Source: Acidobacteriaceae bacterium
GTDB lineage: Bacteria; Acidobacteriota; Terriglobia; Terriglobales; Acidobacteriaceae
Length of the DNA stretch: 40,926 nt
NCBI GenBank assembly: GCA_013361705.1
Contig: JABFXN010000178.1
Location: 1 to 40,926 of the forward strand
Direction: 5' to 3'
Shown here piece after piece: positions 44 to 38,406 of this stretch. A program made the position numbers and the translations under genes. The number at the start of each line of letters is the position of its first letter. Position 1 is the first letter of the stretch. The notes beneath the pieces are model-generated. The model worked only from the letters and a program-made list of their open reading frames with translations. It made no database searches and was not told where the DNA came from.

Positions 44-141
44 CTATATAGCGGGCCTTCAGCCCTTAGTTTTCAATGGGCCGGAGACCTGGGGCGTTGC
101 CCCAGGCTGGTATCGAGCGCGCCTTCAGCGCTTATATATAG
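44..141. repeat. REP-like palindromic element, family A copy 1
   Basis: Outer ends ctatata/tatatag; three short inverted repeats GGGC-CTTCA-GCCC, CCTGGGG-CGTTG-CCCCAGG (88-106), GCGC-CTTCA-GCGC; same layout near 5449, 9088 and 31903. Confidence 0.75.
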
Positions 142-6417: not shown

Positions 6418-7077
6418 CTACAGCAGTGTGACGACTCCGGTGGCGACATCGTAGAAGGCAGCCTGAATCTTTAGCTTGCCCTCGTTGACCATAGGCCACA
6501 GCACGGTAGAGGTCTGGGCGAGCAGGTTTGCCTGGATCTGCGCATTTTTCTTGATGGCGGCAACCAGATTTCCTCCTGCGGCCTCGACGGCAGGCTGCAG
6601 ATGCGGATAGAGCGAGGCAATCTGGCCGGGAACGGGCTTTTTCGCGATGGCTGCTTTGACCGCACCACAGTTGGCATGGCCCATGACCACAAGAACCTCT
6701 ACGCCCAGACCGGCGGCTCCGTATTCGAGGCTGCCTATGATCTCAGAGTTGATGATGTTGCCGGCGACACGTCTGACGAAGATGTGACCGATGGTCTGGT
6801 CGAAGACCAGCTCCACGGGAACGCGGGAGTCGGCGCAGGAGAGCACGGCCGCGAAGGGCTCCTGCTTGTCGACCGTGTGTTCCTTCAGAACCTTTAGGTC
6901 CTGTGCAATGCTTGTGTATTGATCGGCCGCGAAGCGTCGGTTACCTTCCATGAGCCGCTGCAGCGCTGCGTCCGGGGAAGAAGGCGGGACTTCCTGTGCG
7001 GCTGATGAGAGGGAAGGTGCGATCGAAGCTGAAGCGGCGGCAACGAGGAAGGTGCGGCGTGACCAAGGTGTGCTCAT
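6418..7077 (-). CDS. Beta-class carbonic anhydrase, probable Tat-exported
   Basis: CADSR...HANCG zinc-site motifs, VRRVAGNI; N-terminus MSTPWSRRTFLVAAASASIA with twin arginine. Start set at 7077; the ORF track start at 7167 runs into a repeat. Confidence 0.88.
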   Translation of the reverse strand: MSTPWSRRTFLVAAASASIAPSLSSAAQEVPPSSPDAALQRLMEGNRRFAADQYTSIAQDLKVLKEHTVDKQEPFAAVLSCADSRVPVELVFDQTIGHIFVRRVAGNIINSEIIGSLEYGAAGLGVEVLVVMGHANCGAVKAAIAKKPVPGQIASLYPHLQPAVEAAGGNLVAAIKKNAQIQANLLAQTSTVLWPMVNEGKLKIQAAFYDVATGVVTLL

Positions 7078-7126
7078 CGGTGTCTCCCGGAGTGACATGG
7101 AACGCAAGGTAAATGGAACGGCGCGG

Positions 7127-7242
7127 TAGAGTATTTCTCCTGTAGATGTAATGCGGGGCTTGTGCATCTATGGGCGTTTTCCTCAATGAAAACGCCGCTG
7201 CACGCTCCTCGCGGTATAGCCAGCAACAGGAGAAATACTCTA
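7127..7242 (-). repeat. Structured repeat, family C copy 1, upstream of the carbonic anhydrase gene
   Basis: Perfect 17-bp terminal inverted repeat tagagtatttctcctgt/acaggagaaatactcta; internal 9-bp hairpin ggcgttttc-ctcaat-gaaaacgcc (7173-7196); second copy at 36254-36361. Confidence 0.8.
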
Positions 7243-7325: not shown

Positions 7326-8309
7326 TCAGGCTTGCGGTTCGTACCAGCGAAGGACACGCAGGGCACGGAGTGTATTCCACCGGCTGGGCCCACCAACTGT
7401 CTCTCCCACCGGAAAAGGGAGCGCCTCGTCATAAGCGATGTCGAGGAGCCAGTGGCCGCCGGGTTGGCGGCGGCTCTTCAGAATGCCGATTGCTTCGCTG
7501 AGCCGCGGATCTGCGCGGTTGGCGGCGCGGAAGTAATCGAGGGCGCGGAGGATGTCGTAGTGGTAGCGCGGCGGGAAGGCGAGCTCCAGGAACTCGGCGT
7601 TTGCAACTTCGCCGGTCGAGAGTCGGCGGAAGAGATTGCGCTGCAGCAGGTACTCTTCCCCGCGAGCTCTGGCTGCGACAACCTCTGGCGCAGGTCCGAC
7701 GGAGCGTTCATACTCGAGCAGGCCTTCGAGAACGCAGATGGTGGTGTGGAAAGAGGAGCGGCTGCTGGTTGGGGCGTCACAATTCCAACCGCCATCTTCA
7801 AGCTGCTGTGAGATAAGACGTTGCGCAAGGGTTGAAGACGGACGGCCGAAGTATCCGCCCAGTGCCAGCACACCGCCGTTGATGCAGGGCTCTTCTTCGC
7901 CCTCGAAGAATGGATTGCCGCCGGGCGTGGGAGGCCGCAGGTCCCAGAAACCGGGATGGTCGTCCCAGCAGAGACTGGTCTCGAGCCGGACCACAGCCGC
8001 ATCGACGGTGGGATCGGCAGGATCGATTCCGATAGAACGCAGCAGAAGCATGGTCACCAGCGTCGATGCCCACGTGGGTTCATCGGTCCGGAGCCATGAG
8101 CCATTCGGTTCCTGACTGGAGAGAACCCTTGCTCCCAGACCTTCGCGTGGGATGCGGGCTCGATCGGGTGAAGCTGGTTGAATGGTTGAATCGTTGAATG
8201 GTTGAATGGTTCCTTCGCTCACCGACGATTGGGAGGATTTCACAAGATCGCGCATTGTCTGCCAGCGGATGGCGGGGTCGGATTCGAGTAGCCAGTCTAG
8301 AGGAGTCAT
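7326..8309 (-). CDS. Prenyltransferase / squalene-cyclase-like alpha-toroid protein
   Basis: MTPLDWLLESDPAIRWQTMRDL, LSSQEPNGSW, ISQQLEDGGWNCDAP, LKSRRQPGGHWLLD (QxxDGxW-like repeats). Confidence 0.7.
   Translation of the reverse strand: MTPLDWLLESDPAIRWQTMRDLVKSSQSSVSEGTIQPFNDSTIQPASPDRARIPREGLGARVLSSQEPNGSWLRTDEPTWASTLVTMLLLRSIGIDPADPTVDAAVVRLETSLCWDDHPGFWDLRPPTPGGNPFFEGEEEPCINGGVLALGGYFGRPSSTLAQRLISQQLEDGGWNCDAPTSSRSSFHTTICVLEGLLEYERSVGPAPEVVAARARGEEYLLQRNLFRRLSTGEVANAEFLELAFPPRYHYDILRALDYFRAANRADPRLSEAIGILKSRRQPGGHWLLDIAYDEALPFPVGETVGGPSRWNTLRALRVLRWYEPQA
8177..8211. repeat. Octamer tandem array (GTTGAATN) inside the CDS at 7326..8309
   Basis: gttgaatg gttgaatc gttgaatg gttgaatg gtt; period 8; encodes ...IQPFNDSTIQP... 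in the minus-strand frame. Confidence 0.85.
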
Positions 8310-31902: not shown

Positions 31903-31946
31903 CCTGGGGCGTTGCCCCAGGCTGGTATAGAACGCGCCTTCAGCGC
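31903..31946. repeat. REP-like palindromic element, family A copy 4 (partial)
   Basis: CCTGGGGCGTTGCCCCAGG (31903-31921) then ctggtatagaacgcgccttcagcgct; the left arm is missing. Confidence 0.75.
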
Positions 31947-32048
31947 TCGGAGCCGTGGCACTACCAGCTGGTATGGAATGAGTGTCTGGTGTGGACAAGC
32001 TTCTTATCCTGCCCACACGGTACGTCTTCAAACTTTCAACTTGTTTCT

Positions 32049-35232: not shown

Positions 35233-36210
35233 TTATTTCGCGGAGACCAGTACCATGCCGTCGGCGCCTTTGCCGGAGAAGATGCTCCTTACCTGCTCCT
35301 GTTTGGCCACGTCCAGCTCATCGATCGTTCCGGAGTGCAGGCTGGAGACAAAGGCACGTTTGCCGTCTTTGGTGATCACTACCGCCTGCGGGTATTCCCC
35401 TACCGGAATCACCTTCGTGACCTTCATCGTCGAGAGGTCCAGAAAAGCGACCTTATTGGCATGTACGAGACAAAGGATCAGGGTCTTGCCGTCGGGCGTG
35501 ATGGCGCCGCCGTAGCCGGAGGCCGGCAGCGGGACATAGTTTTTTACCTTATTGGTGGCGGTATCGATAACAGCGAGACGCGGTTCAACCTGGTCTGAGG
35601 TGAAGACGTACTTGCCATCGTTCGTAATGATGATGCGCTGTGTGTTCTTCGAGATCGGAATGATGGTAACAAGCTTCTTCGCATCGAGATCGAGCACCGA
35701 AACCGTGCCGGGGCCAACGTTCGCGGTGTAGGCGTGGTGGCCATCCGGAGAGAGCACCAGCATGTGCGATTCAGCCTGGCCAGTCGGGATGGAATAAAGC
35801 ACCTTATAGGTCTTGGGATCGATGGCGGTGATGCTCTGATCGATCTCGGTGGTCACCCACAGGACATTGCGGTGCGTGTCATAGACGGGCTTGTGCGGAC
35901 GTACACCGTGACCGAAATTGATGGTGTGGATGATCTTGTGGCTGGCCACATCAACCACCTGAATCTCCGCGCCGTCGGTGCCTGGCTTGCCGACACCGGC
36001 ACTGCCGTACATGGGAACGAAGGCGATTTTGCCGTCGGGCGTGGTGGTGATCTCGTGGCCTGTGACACCGTTCTCGGGAATCGTGTCGATGACCTTGCCG
36101 GCCACCGTATCGATATAGGTGAGGCTCCGGTCCGTCTGATTGGTGACCAGGAGGGTGGACTGGGCCAGGGCAGAGGTAGCGAAGAGAGTGGCGGCAAGTG
36201 CGATTTTCAT
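35233..36210 (-). CDS. Exported YVTN-type beta-propeller protein
   Basis: Signal MKIALAATLFATSALAQ; repeated VIDTIPENGVTGHEITTTPDGKIAFVP, YSIPTGQAESHMLVLSPDGHHAYTAN. Start set at 36210; the ORF track start at 36372 runs into a repeat. Confidence 0.85.
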   Translation of the reverse strand: MKIALAATLFATSALAQSTLLVTNQTDRSLTYIDTVAGKVIDTIPENGVTGHEITTTPDGKIAFVPMYGSAGVGKPGTDGAEIQVVDVASHKIIHTINFGHGVRPHKPVYDTHRNVLWVTTEIDQSITAIDPKTYKVLYSIPTGQAESHMLVLSPDGHHAYTANVGPGTVSVLDLDAKKLVTIIPISKNTQRIIITNDGKYVFTSDQVEPRLAVIDTATNKVKNYVPLPASGYGGAITPDGKTLILCLVHANKVAFLDLSTMKVTKVIPVGEYPQAVVITKDGKRAFVSSLHSGTIDELDVAKQEQVRSIFSGKGADGMVLVSAK

Positions 36211-36253
36211 GGCAGGCAAGGATAGCAGGAAAGCCGAAGTATTTGCCGCTCCG

Positions 36254-36361
36254 GCATTTTCCCTGTGGGTGCTGCGTGGGCTTCCGCATCTATGGGCGTT
36301 TTCCGCAATGAAAACGCCACAGCACGCCTCTTCCCGGGATACCCAGCAACAGGGAAAATGC
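36254..36361 (-). repeat. Structured repeat, family C copy 2, upstream of the YVTN gene
   Basis: gcattttccctgt/acagggaaaatgc 13-bp terminal inverted repeat; internal ggcgttttc-cgcaat-gaaaacgcc hairpin (36295-36318). Confidence 0.8.
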
Positions 36362-36399
36362 GACTCGAGCATTTATAGTGGGCCATCGAGGAGTTTGCC

Positions 36400-38406
36400 A
36401 TGAAGTGGTTTGCCGCAGCCGCGCTGGGTTGCACTCTGCTGCCATTTTCCGCCGCCGCCCAGCAAGGTGCGCGGGTTCAGGACATCGACAAGTCGCTTTC
36501 GCCGTGCAACGACTTCGACAATTATGCCAATGGGCTGTGGCGGAAGCAGAATCCGATGCCTGCGATCCAGACTTCCTGGGCACTGCGGACCGTCACCCAG
36601 GAAGAGACCACCGCGAAACTGCGCGGCCTGCTGGATGAAGCTTCCTCAAAGAAGCAGGCGGCGGGTAGCACCGAACAACTCATCGGCGACTTCTATGGCG
36701 CGTGTATGGACGAGGCGGCAGTCAATGCCGCGGGCCTGAAGCCGCTGCAGCCGGCGTTGGCGCGCATCGATGCCATCAAGGACACTCGCGGTGTGCAGAC
36801 GATGATCGTCGATCTGATGAAGGTTGGCGTTCGGGCTCCGCTCGATATCAGTTCATCGCAGGATGCACATGCTCCTCTGGACACCATCGCCGAGATCTCC
36901 ATCCGCGGCCTCGGCCTGCCCGACCGGGATTACTATCTGCGCAATGAGCCTCGGTACAAGGAGATTCGTGAGAAGTACACCGCTCACGTAGAGTCGATGT
37001 TCAAGCTCGCGGGCTACAGCGAGATCCAGGCGAAGGAAGCAACGGATGCCGTGCTGAAGATCGAGACTAAGCTGGCGGAAGCGCGGCTGTCGCGCGTGGA
37101 GCTGCGCGAGCCGAAGAATACCGACCATCCGATGCAGTTCGGCAACCTCACGAAGCAGTACGCAGGCTTCGACTGGGTGGCCACATATAAGGCACTGAAT
37201 GTTCCTCAGGGCAAGCTGAATCTCAGCCAGCCCAAGCTGACTGCGGCCTTCCTCACGGAGCTGAAACAGACGCCTGTCGGTGAGTGGAAGGCTTATCTGC
37301 GCTGGATGGTGTTGCACGCCGATGCAGCCTACCTGCCCACGACGTTTGTCGATGAGAACTTCCATTTCTTCGGAACGGTGATGACCGGGGTGAAGGAGCA
37401 GCGGCCGCGGTGGCAGCGCTGCTCTCGCCTGGTGGATTCCCAACTTGGCGAAGCACTGGGTAAGAAGTATGTCGAGGTGTACTTCTCGCCAGAGGCGAAA
37501 GCCCGTGCGCGTGAGATGGCAGTCAATATCGCCGAGCAGTTGAAGCTGAGCATTACCAGCAATGACTGGATGACGCAGGCAACCAAGGCTAAGGCCCTGG
37601 AGAAAGTAGCCGCTCTGAATATCAAGGTCGGGTATCCCGACAAATGGAAGGACTACTCCAGCGTGAAGGTCACGCGCGCCGACTTCCTGTCGGATGTGAT
37701 GTCGACGCAGGCCTTCGCGGTGCGCGACGATCTGGGGCGGATCGGCAAGCCACTGGACCGTGGCCGCTGGGATATGACTCCGCCCACGATGAACGCCTAT
37801 TACAACCCGCAGATGAATGAGGTGGTTGTACCGGCAGGATACCTACAGCCACCGGGCTTCAATCCGAAAGGCATCGACGCCATCAACTATGGCGCAATTG
37901 GAGTCACGATTGGCCACGAGATCAGCCACGGCGTGGACGATGAGGGTGCGCAGTTTGCCGCCGATGGATCGCTGACGATGTGGTGGACGCCGGAGGACTT
38001 TGAAAAGTTCAAGACCAAGACGGCATGCACGACGCAGCAGTACGACAGCTACTTCATCGAGCCGGGCATTCATCACAACGGAAAGCTGGTGACAGGCGAG
38101 GCCTTGGGCGACCTGGGCGGCGTAAACCTGGCCCTTCGGGCGTATGAGAAGTCGCGCGAGGGCAAGGGACCGGAAGCTACCGTCGACGGTCTGACGCCGG
38201 AACAGCAGTTCTTTTTGGCGGAGGCGCAGTGGCGTGGCGCCTTGGTAAGGCCCGAGGCGGCACGCAGCCAGGTGCAGGTGGACCCGCATCCGCTGGGCAA
38301 ATGGCGTGTGCTGGGTCCGTTATCGAACATGCCGGAATTTGAGAAGGCATGGGGGTGCAAGAAAGGGGACCCGATGGTGCGCGCAGAGACCTGCAAGGTC
38401 TGGTAG
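36400..38406 (+). CDS. M13 family metallopeptidase (neprilysin-like)
   Basis: DFDNYANGLW, NAYYNPQMNEVVVPAGYLQPPGF, zinc motif TIGHEISHGVDDEGAQF, GEALGDLGG. Confidence 0.93.
   Translation: MKWFAAAALGCTLLPFSAAAQQGARVQDIDKSLSPCNDFDNYANGLWRKQNPMPAIQTSWALRTVTQEETTAKLRGLLDEASSKKQAAGSTEQLIGDFYGACMDEAAVNAAGLKPLQPALARIDAIKDTRGVQTMIVDLMKVGVRAPLDISSSQDAHAPLDTIAEISIRGLGLPDRDYYLRNEPRYKEIREKYTAHVESMFKLAGYSEIQAKEATDAVLKIETKLAEARLSRVELREPKNTDHPMQFGNLTKQYAGFDWVATYKALNVPQGKLNLSQPKLTAAFLTELKQTPVGEWKAYLRWMVLHADAAYLPTTFVDENFHFFGTVMTGVKEQRPRWQRCSRLVDSQLGEALGKKYVEVYFSPEAKARAREMAVNIAEQLKLSITSNDWMTQATKAKALEKVAALNIKVGYPDKWKDYSSVKVTRADFLSDVMSTQAFAVRDDLGRIGKPLDRGRWDMTPPTMNAYYNPQMNEVVVPAGYLQPPGFNPKGIDAINYGAIGVTIGHEISHGVDDEGAQFAADGSLTMWWTPEDFEKFKTKTACTTQQYDSYFIEPGIHHNGKLVTGEALGDLGGVNLALRAYEKSREGKGPEATVDGLTPEQQFFLAEAQWRGALVRPEAARSQVQVDPHPLGKWRVLGPLSNMPEFEKAWGCKKGDPMVRAETCKVW

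Follow-up and report, generated by a model that had tools for sequence, protein, structure and literature searches.

A short palindromic repeat upstream of a carbonic anhydrase gene very probably belongs to an IS630-type MITE family of Acidobacteria that is enriched at stop codons

The window analysed here, meaning the whole 40,926-nt stretch of DNA, carries two copies of a palindromic element of about 116 bp, one beside a gene for a beta-carbonic anhydrase and the other between the divergent genes for a YncE-like beta-propeller protein and an M13 peptidase (Table 1). A previous, sequence-only reading had described copy 1 as a perfect 17-bp terminal inverted repeat (TIR) around a 9-bp hairpin, and both are present in the sequence, the hairpin arms lying at 7173-7181 and 7188-7196. 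The two copies have in common an 18-mer, GCATCTATGGGCGTTTTC, which occurs exactly twice in the window where 0.03 occurrences would be expected by chance, and copy 1 folds far beyond its shuffles, both as DNA (z = -6.98) and, on the other strand, as RNA (z = -6.43). The placement of copy 2 at 36254-36361 in that reading covers the part with perfect TIRs only, the full copy being longer, and its statement that the outer flanks of the two copies differ but stay paired does not hold: the outermost bases of copy 2 (TCCG...GACT) are unpaired and only 13 bp are perfect. In automatic gene calling the carbonic anhydrase ORF takes a longer form, to 7167, with an in-frame ATG inside the element (window 7078-7167); such extensions are seen at many copies elsewhere and are a likely source of mis-annotated N termini. 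The window also contains two Acido-Lenti-1 RNAs (RF01687), at 88-132 (+) and 31903-31947 (+), both above the gathering score.

Table 1. The two window copies with their neighbouring genes, and second-family copies elsewhere. Positions are those of the window unless a genome or locus handle precedes them; G002 is a complete 6.4 Mb genome of the same genus.
Feature	Position	Strand	Basis or remark
MITE copy 1	7127..7242	+ (the orientation with GCATCTATGGGCG)	116 bp including one target TA per end; nhmmer family member; unoccupied allele at G002:735591-735606
Left TIR, copy 1, TAGAGTATTTCTCCTGT	7127..7143	+	Sequence; matches 5' end of the IS630-type IS of G095
Right TIR, copy 1	7226..7242	-	Perfect complement of left TIR; paired in fold
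Central hairpin, copy 1, GGCGTTTTC-CTCAAT-GAAAACGCC	7173..7196	+	Evolves most slowly within the family; arms 98.9% conserved (200 copies)
Left TA of target duplication, copy 1	7127..7128	no strand	Family-wide empty/filled comparison
Right TA of target duplication, copy 1	7241..7242	no strand	Family-wide empty/filled comparison
Beta-carbonic anhydrase (Pro_CA) gene downstream of copy 1	6418..7077	-	Pfam PF00484, E=1e-31; likely start ATG 7077
Gene on other side of copy 1, end 7326	7326..8309	-	ORF list; no Pfam match
MITE copy 2, ends decayed (TCCG.../...GACT)	36250..36365	+	Older copy; also in G002 at 695429
Left TIR remnant, copy 2, perfect 13 bp, GCATTTTCCCTGT	36254..36266	+	Sequence; partner 36349-36361
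YncE-like beta-propeller gene	35233..36210	-	Pfam PF21783; start 43 nt from paired part of copy 2
M13 peptidase gene, other side of copy 2, divergent	36400..38406	+	Pfam PF05649/PF01431
Second-family copies	G002 222739-222892, 397916-398077, 765655-765807, 52564, 577539, 1137585; L235 7275; L233 15046

Both copies lie a short way upstream of a start codon, and the distances previously given for them, 49 nt to the start at 7077 and 43 nt to that at 36210, are correct. A common orientation relative to the gene had also been claimed; it holds for the carbonic anhydrase and YncE-like genes, but the divergent M13 peptidase gene (36400, +) likewise has copy 2 upstream of it, and there is no genome-wide rule. 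The shared orientation of the two copies 43-49 nt ahead of a start codon, together with the strong fold, speaks for a cis-acting structured leader RNA (riboswitch-like) that would control the downstream exported-protein genes, an interpretation that we now consider extremely unlikely. Hundreds of copies stand beside unrelated genes in both orientations, a tabulation of orientation and position put them at gene 3' ends as often as at 5' ends (91+68 neighbouring genes have their ends there, 70+47 their starts), the presence of a copy upstream of one and the same gene is polymorphic, and the element had no Rfam match at E<=10.

The search of the window's own genome gave at least 40 scored full-length or near full-length matches among 271-298 candidates. 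In the same genus, first-look candidates numbered 340 in G002, 420 in Terriglobus albidus DSM 26559 (G009), 271 in the MAG SH_60_12 (G013) and three, all weak, in a further genome (G011), and this first-look search found no copies in 14 of the 18 other same-genus genomes. A profile search of 1.6 Mb of G002 recovered 85 copies, or about 340 per genome; extrapolated from these ~1.6 Mb and the first-look counts, Terriglobus-type acidobacteria carrying the element have roughly 300-400 copies per genome. Exact cores also occur in Granulicella MAGs and in G. mallensis X5P3, and recognisable copies or ends in 15 of 200 Acidobacteriaceae genomes; plasmid collections held no copies, nor did viral contigs, which were scanned for the exact 25-base core only. 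The family consensus reads TAGAGCATTTYYCCTGTAGGTGTAGTG...GCATCTATGGGCGTTTTCCGCAATGAAAACGCC...ATACCCAGCAACAGGRRAAATGCTCTA, and the element, at ~116 bp, is too short for a transposase and has no coding capacity. Some copies form head-to-tail clusters of two to three (G009 C38 5274-5619, G009 C19 133926-134198, L113 2328-2560), and the copy number of the cluster at L113 differs from that at L134, in another genome. Other copies are found within different short repeats (L227 around 18287, L123 around 1009), whose flanks are found again at several positions in both the window's genome and G002, which suggests more unnamed repeat families.

Copy 1 is absent from the matching site of G002, which is syntenic with the window, copy 2 is common to both, and five G002 copies are missing from the window, a presence/absence polymorphism that shows recent movement. 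Clean unoccupied alleles hold a single TA and occupied ones TA-element-TA (that is, TA-GAGC...GCTC-TA; for example gtcgCTAGAC becomes gtcgCTAGAGCA...TGCTCTAGAC), so that the element proper is GAGC...GCTC, of ~112 bp, with the TA duplicated, although one TA carried along by the element would give the same sequence. Duplication of TA is the pattern of IS630-Tc1/mariner elements. The preferred target is SGNTAR in the element's orientation: R (A/G) follows the right TA in 199/232 copies, and G stands at -2 in 135/232 against C at +2 in 47/232 (p=4e-17). This orientation of the target runs counter to what a symmetric TA target would predict, and it is a point against an IS630-derived MITE.

A candidate parent was found by the profile's ends alone in another genus of Acidobacteriaceae, on a contig (G095 C131) that also has DDE_3 (IS630 transposase) matches. 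It is an IS630-family IS of 1017 bp with HTH_33 and DDE_3 domains in split frames, and it interrupts a gene at a TA, its flanks when joined giving one open reading frame. At its 5' end, TAGAGCATTTCTCCTGAAGGTGTA, 23 of the first 25 bases match the left end of the MITE, and its 3' end, TAGAGCACATCTCCTATTGCTG, has the TTGCTG that is distinctive of the MITE right end. With 260 nt of this IS as query, the matches in the window's genome, G002, G009 and G013 end after the first 21-32 bases (mostly 24-27), and those checked are MITE ends, mostly left ends of the family described here and some ends of a second family. Short elements of G095 itself (e.g. L325) have 27/27 bases in common with the IS end, and other Acidobacteriaceae IS630s start TAGAGCATTTCT (L303, L305, L307, L310). 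Counting against the IS630 explanation, the DDE domain of the G095 copy is frameshifted, and in the window's genus neither an intact IS with MITE ends nor an active partner transposase was found; a search of the fetched DNA for a full-length IS bracketed by the TIR found only second-family MITEs. The IS630-family IS resident in the window's genome (C122; L285 1371-2366) has the ends TAGAGCAAAGTTGAGG and TAGAGCAGAATTCAGT, with only TAGAGCA in common with the MITE, at both ends. The IS630s of G002 and G009 were rejected as parents, their ends (TATTGATTCCTG) being unrelated.

The oriented SGNTAR target could instead reflect the strand-specific chemistry of a tyrosine (Y1, IS200/IS605-like) transposase, the element then being of the REP/RAYT or TIRYT kind. 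Most of these genomes encode Y1 transposases, and TIR-flanked tyrosine transposases have been described in acidobacteria (PMC3733652). We nevertheless regard this origin as very improbable: Y1 genes are equally frequent in genomes without the element, none of about 30 Y1 loci scanned is bracketed by it, and both of its ends separately match an IS630. REP/RAYT elements are defined as palindromes of 20-40 bp with GTAG or CGTC at one end (PMC3733652), whereas the present element has 116 bp with TIRs, and its consensus shows no such tag at the hairpin foot. Of the mobile palindromic (REP- or MITE-like) repeat that the sequence-only reading had envisaged, the MITE is thus the form supported, by the TA duplication, the TIRs of 15-17 bp and the ends matching an IS630-family IS. 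In our assessment the element is very probably a copy of a gene-less, IS630-derived MITE of the IS630-Tc1/mariner type and not a gene-specific RNA switch.

The second MITE family shares its outer ends (TAGAGCATTTCTCCTAA...) with the first and comes in two sizes, about 115 and 153 bp. It keeps the CGTTTTC...GAAAACG hairpin of the first, with another interior, and 4 of its 14 full copies are also at stop codons. At G002 1346549-1346661 a second-family MITE is nested in a first-family copy, at the TA of the CCCATAGATG core.

The paired stem change noticed between the two window copies is real and family-wide, with 159 double changes that keep Watson-Crick pairing in 200 copies against 50 in shuffles. 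Strong covariation is seen at inner positions of the TIR (pair 12/105: CG 100, TA 72, TG 19, CA 4), and the two most variable TIR pairs underwent roughly 20 changes each between perfect pairs, as counted on a noisy tree of the 82-nt interior. TIR mismatches of G-U type are equal on the two strands (84 on + vs 89 on -, 200 copies), which suggests that the palindrome is kept as DNA and not as transcribed RNA; this too argues against a leader RNA, since neither strand shows signs of being selected as RNA. It seems to be kept as DNA by both ends fitting one transposase or by copying from arm to arm. A 51-bp near-perfect palindrome at G002 482535-482585, in which the right end of the element is joined to an inverted copy of itself, is possibly a product of strand switching.

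The central hairpin hardly varies or covaries (3 double changes in 1788 cells). Within orthologous copies its 24 nt differ at 14/456 positions, against 162/1672 elsewhere in the element, a rate about 3 times slower (p=1e-6) in a sample of 19 orthologous pairs, de-duplicated by hand, a few of which share one member. The pattern suggests that, once the element has inserted, the hairpin is subject to selection or gene conversion. Transposition alone gives no explanation for such conservation in situ, which is a further point against the IS630-MITE account.

The positions of the copies relative to genes, which were called with a simple home-made codon-usage gene caller, show a sharp peak of neighbouring gene ends exactly at the element boundary. 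In G002, 29 of 72 full copies (~40%) lie exactly within a TAA or TAG stop codon, where 8% would be expected (p=1.3e-13 against all permissible TAs), and insertions per 1000 TA amount to 38.7 at stops, 11.8 within 30 bp behind stops and 4.4 at other intergenic sites. The excess stands against TAs just behind stops (p=5e-4) and persists when only TAR sites (p=1e-10) or only SGNTAR sites (p=3e-12) are considered, and stop-site copies in this genome show a preferred orientation with respect to the gene (21 vs 8). Since the duplicated TA is followed by the first base of the element, a G, every insertion into TAA or TAG yields TAG. At each end of the element one reading frame contains a TAG, and this terminal TAG might truncate the genes entered, so that any in-frame insertion would look stop-sited and the excess would be an artefact. 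This is very unlikely and has been largely refuted: the target TA already belongs to a stop codon in about 9 of the 22 distinct alleles that lack the element, and R follows the right TA in the 199/232 copies mentioned above.

The 40% of copies directly at stop codons could also have been kept there by selection, had the host recruited the MITE hairpin as a 3'-end or intercistronic RNA element serving stability or termination. The roughly threefold slower evolution of the hairpin in orthologous copies fits such a role, as do its retention in the second family with another interior and the nominally slightly lower number of hairpin changes in stop-site copies (0.38 vs 0.67). We consider it unlikely, since the hairpin has no U-run terminator, wobble changes are without strand bias, the hairpin is conserved also in copies away from stop codons, and gene conversion between copies could yield the same pattern. 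A further proposal is in our view rather improbable as well: the MITE family would actively seek out stop codons, always in one orientation (SGNTAR), restore the stop and so add to hundreds of genes a hairpin that the host conserves. The transposon would then serve to spread a standard 3'-end RNA element among genes.

For the IS630-derived MITE that we favour, a transposase made elsewhere would bind both ~15-bp ends (GAGCATTTCTCCTGT...ACAGGAGAAATGCTC), presumably acting in trans, excise the element and insert it at a TA, with duplication of the TA and a preference for sites that read SGNTAR in the direction of the element. The paired end changes may reflect the need of both ends to fit the same transposase, or strand switching that would copy one arm into the other. 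Stop-codon sites may be favoured partly by the TAR motif and partly by the harmlessness of such insertions. In a transcript the element would form a long hairpin directly next to the gene, after or before it, and may alter mRNA stability, as has been described for ERIC and Correia elements. The initial observation was real and is confirmed in part, and its interpretation is partly supported.

These data document a large, recently active MITE family in Acidobacteria with a probable IS630 parent, and make available about two dozen natural before/after insertion sites. Landing exactly in a stop codon is a harmless entry into gene-dense DNA for a transposon, and the unoccupied alleles make the choice of target testable against later selection. 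The low rate of change in the hairpin makes it a test case for a mobile element domesticated as an mRNA 3'-end signal.

The literature searched on MITEs of Terriglobus or Acidobacteria contained nothing relevant. REP/RAYT elements and TIRYTs are likewise high-copy palindromic intergenic DNA, and TIRYTs occur in Acidobacteria (PMC3733652), but the present MITE differs from them in its length, TIR-only ends, TA duplication and lack of a GTAG/CGTC tag, and no association with a tyrosine transposase was found. ERIC and Correia/NEMIS elements are palindromic MITEs of 100-160 bp with TA at their termini that change mRNA stability via RNase E/III (PMC2229807, PMC3049150); they have other hosts and another sequence. 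For BOX of Streptococcus pneumoniae, 36 CDSs are described that end within the repeat and take their stop codon from it, without being clearly truncated (PMC3049150), which is a precedent for stop-codon placement; as portrayed there, BOX is modular and linked to ISSpn2, and the section of that account consulted contains neither proof from unoccupied alleles nor a site-normalised enrichment. RUP, the repeat unit of pneumococcus mobilised by IS630-Spn1, is similar in its ~107-116 bp, absence of an ORF, IS630-family-like TIRs, TA target with duplication and about 100 to several hundred intergenic copies (PMC2229807, PMC3049150). It belongs to a different phylum and has a different sequence, the cognate IS of the present MITE is not resident in the window's genus, and RUP density peaks 50-150 bp from genes, whereas the present MITE peaks exactly at stop codons. 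As an IS630-derived MITE family the acidobacterial one resembles RUP in kind and is ordinary in that respect; its sequence and host are new, and two of its features go beyond the routine, its precise landing in stop codons and its constrained hairpin.
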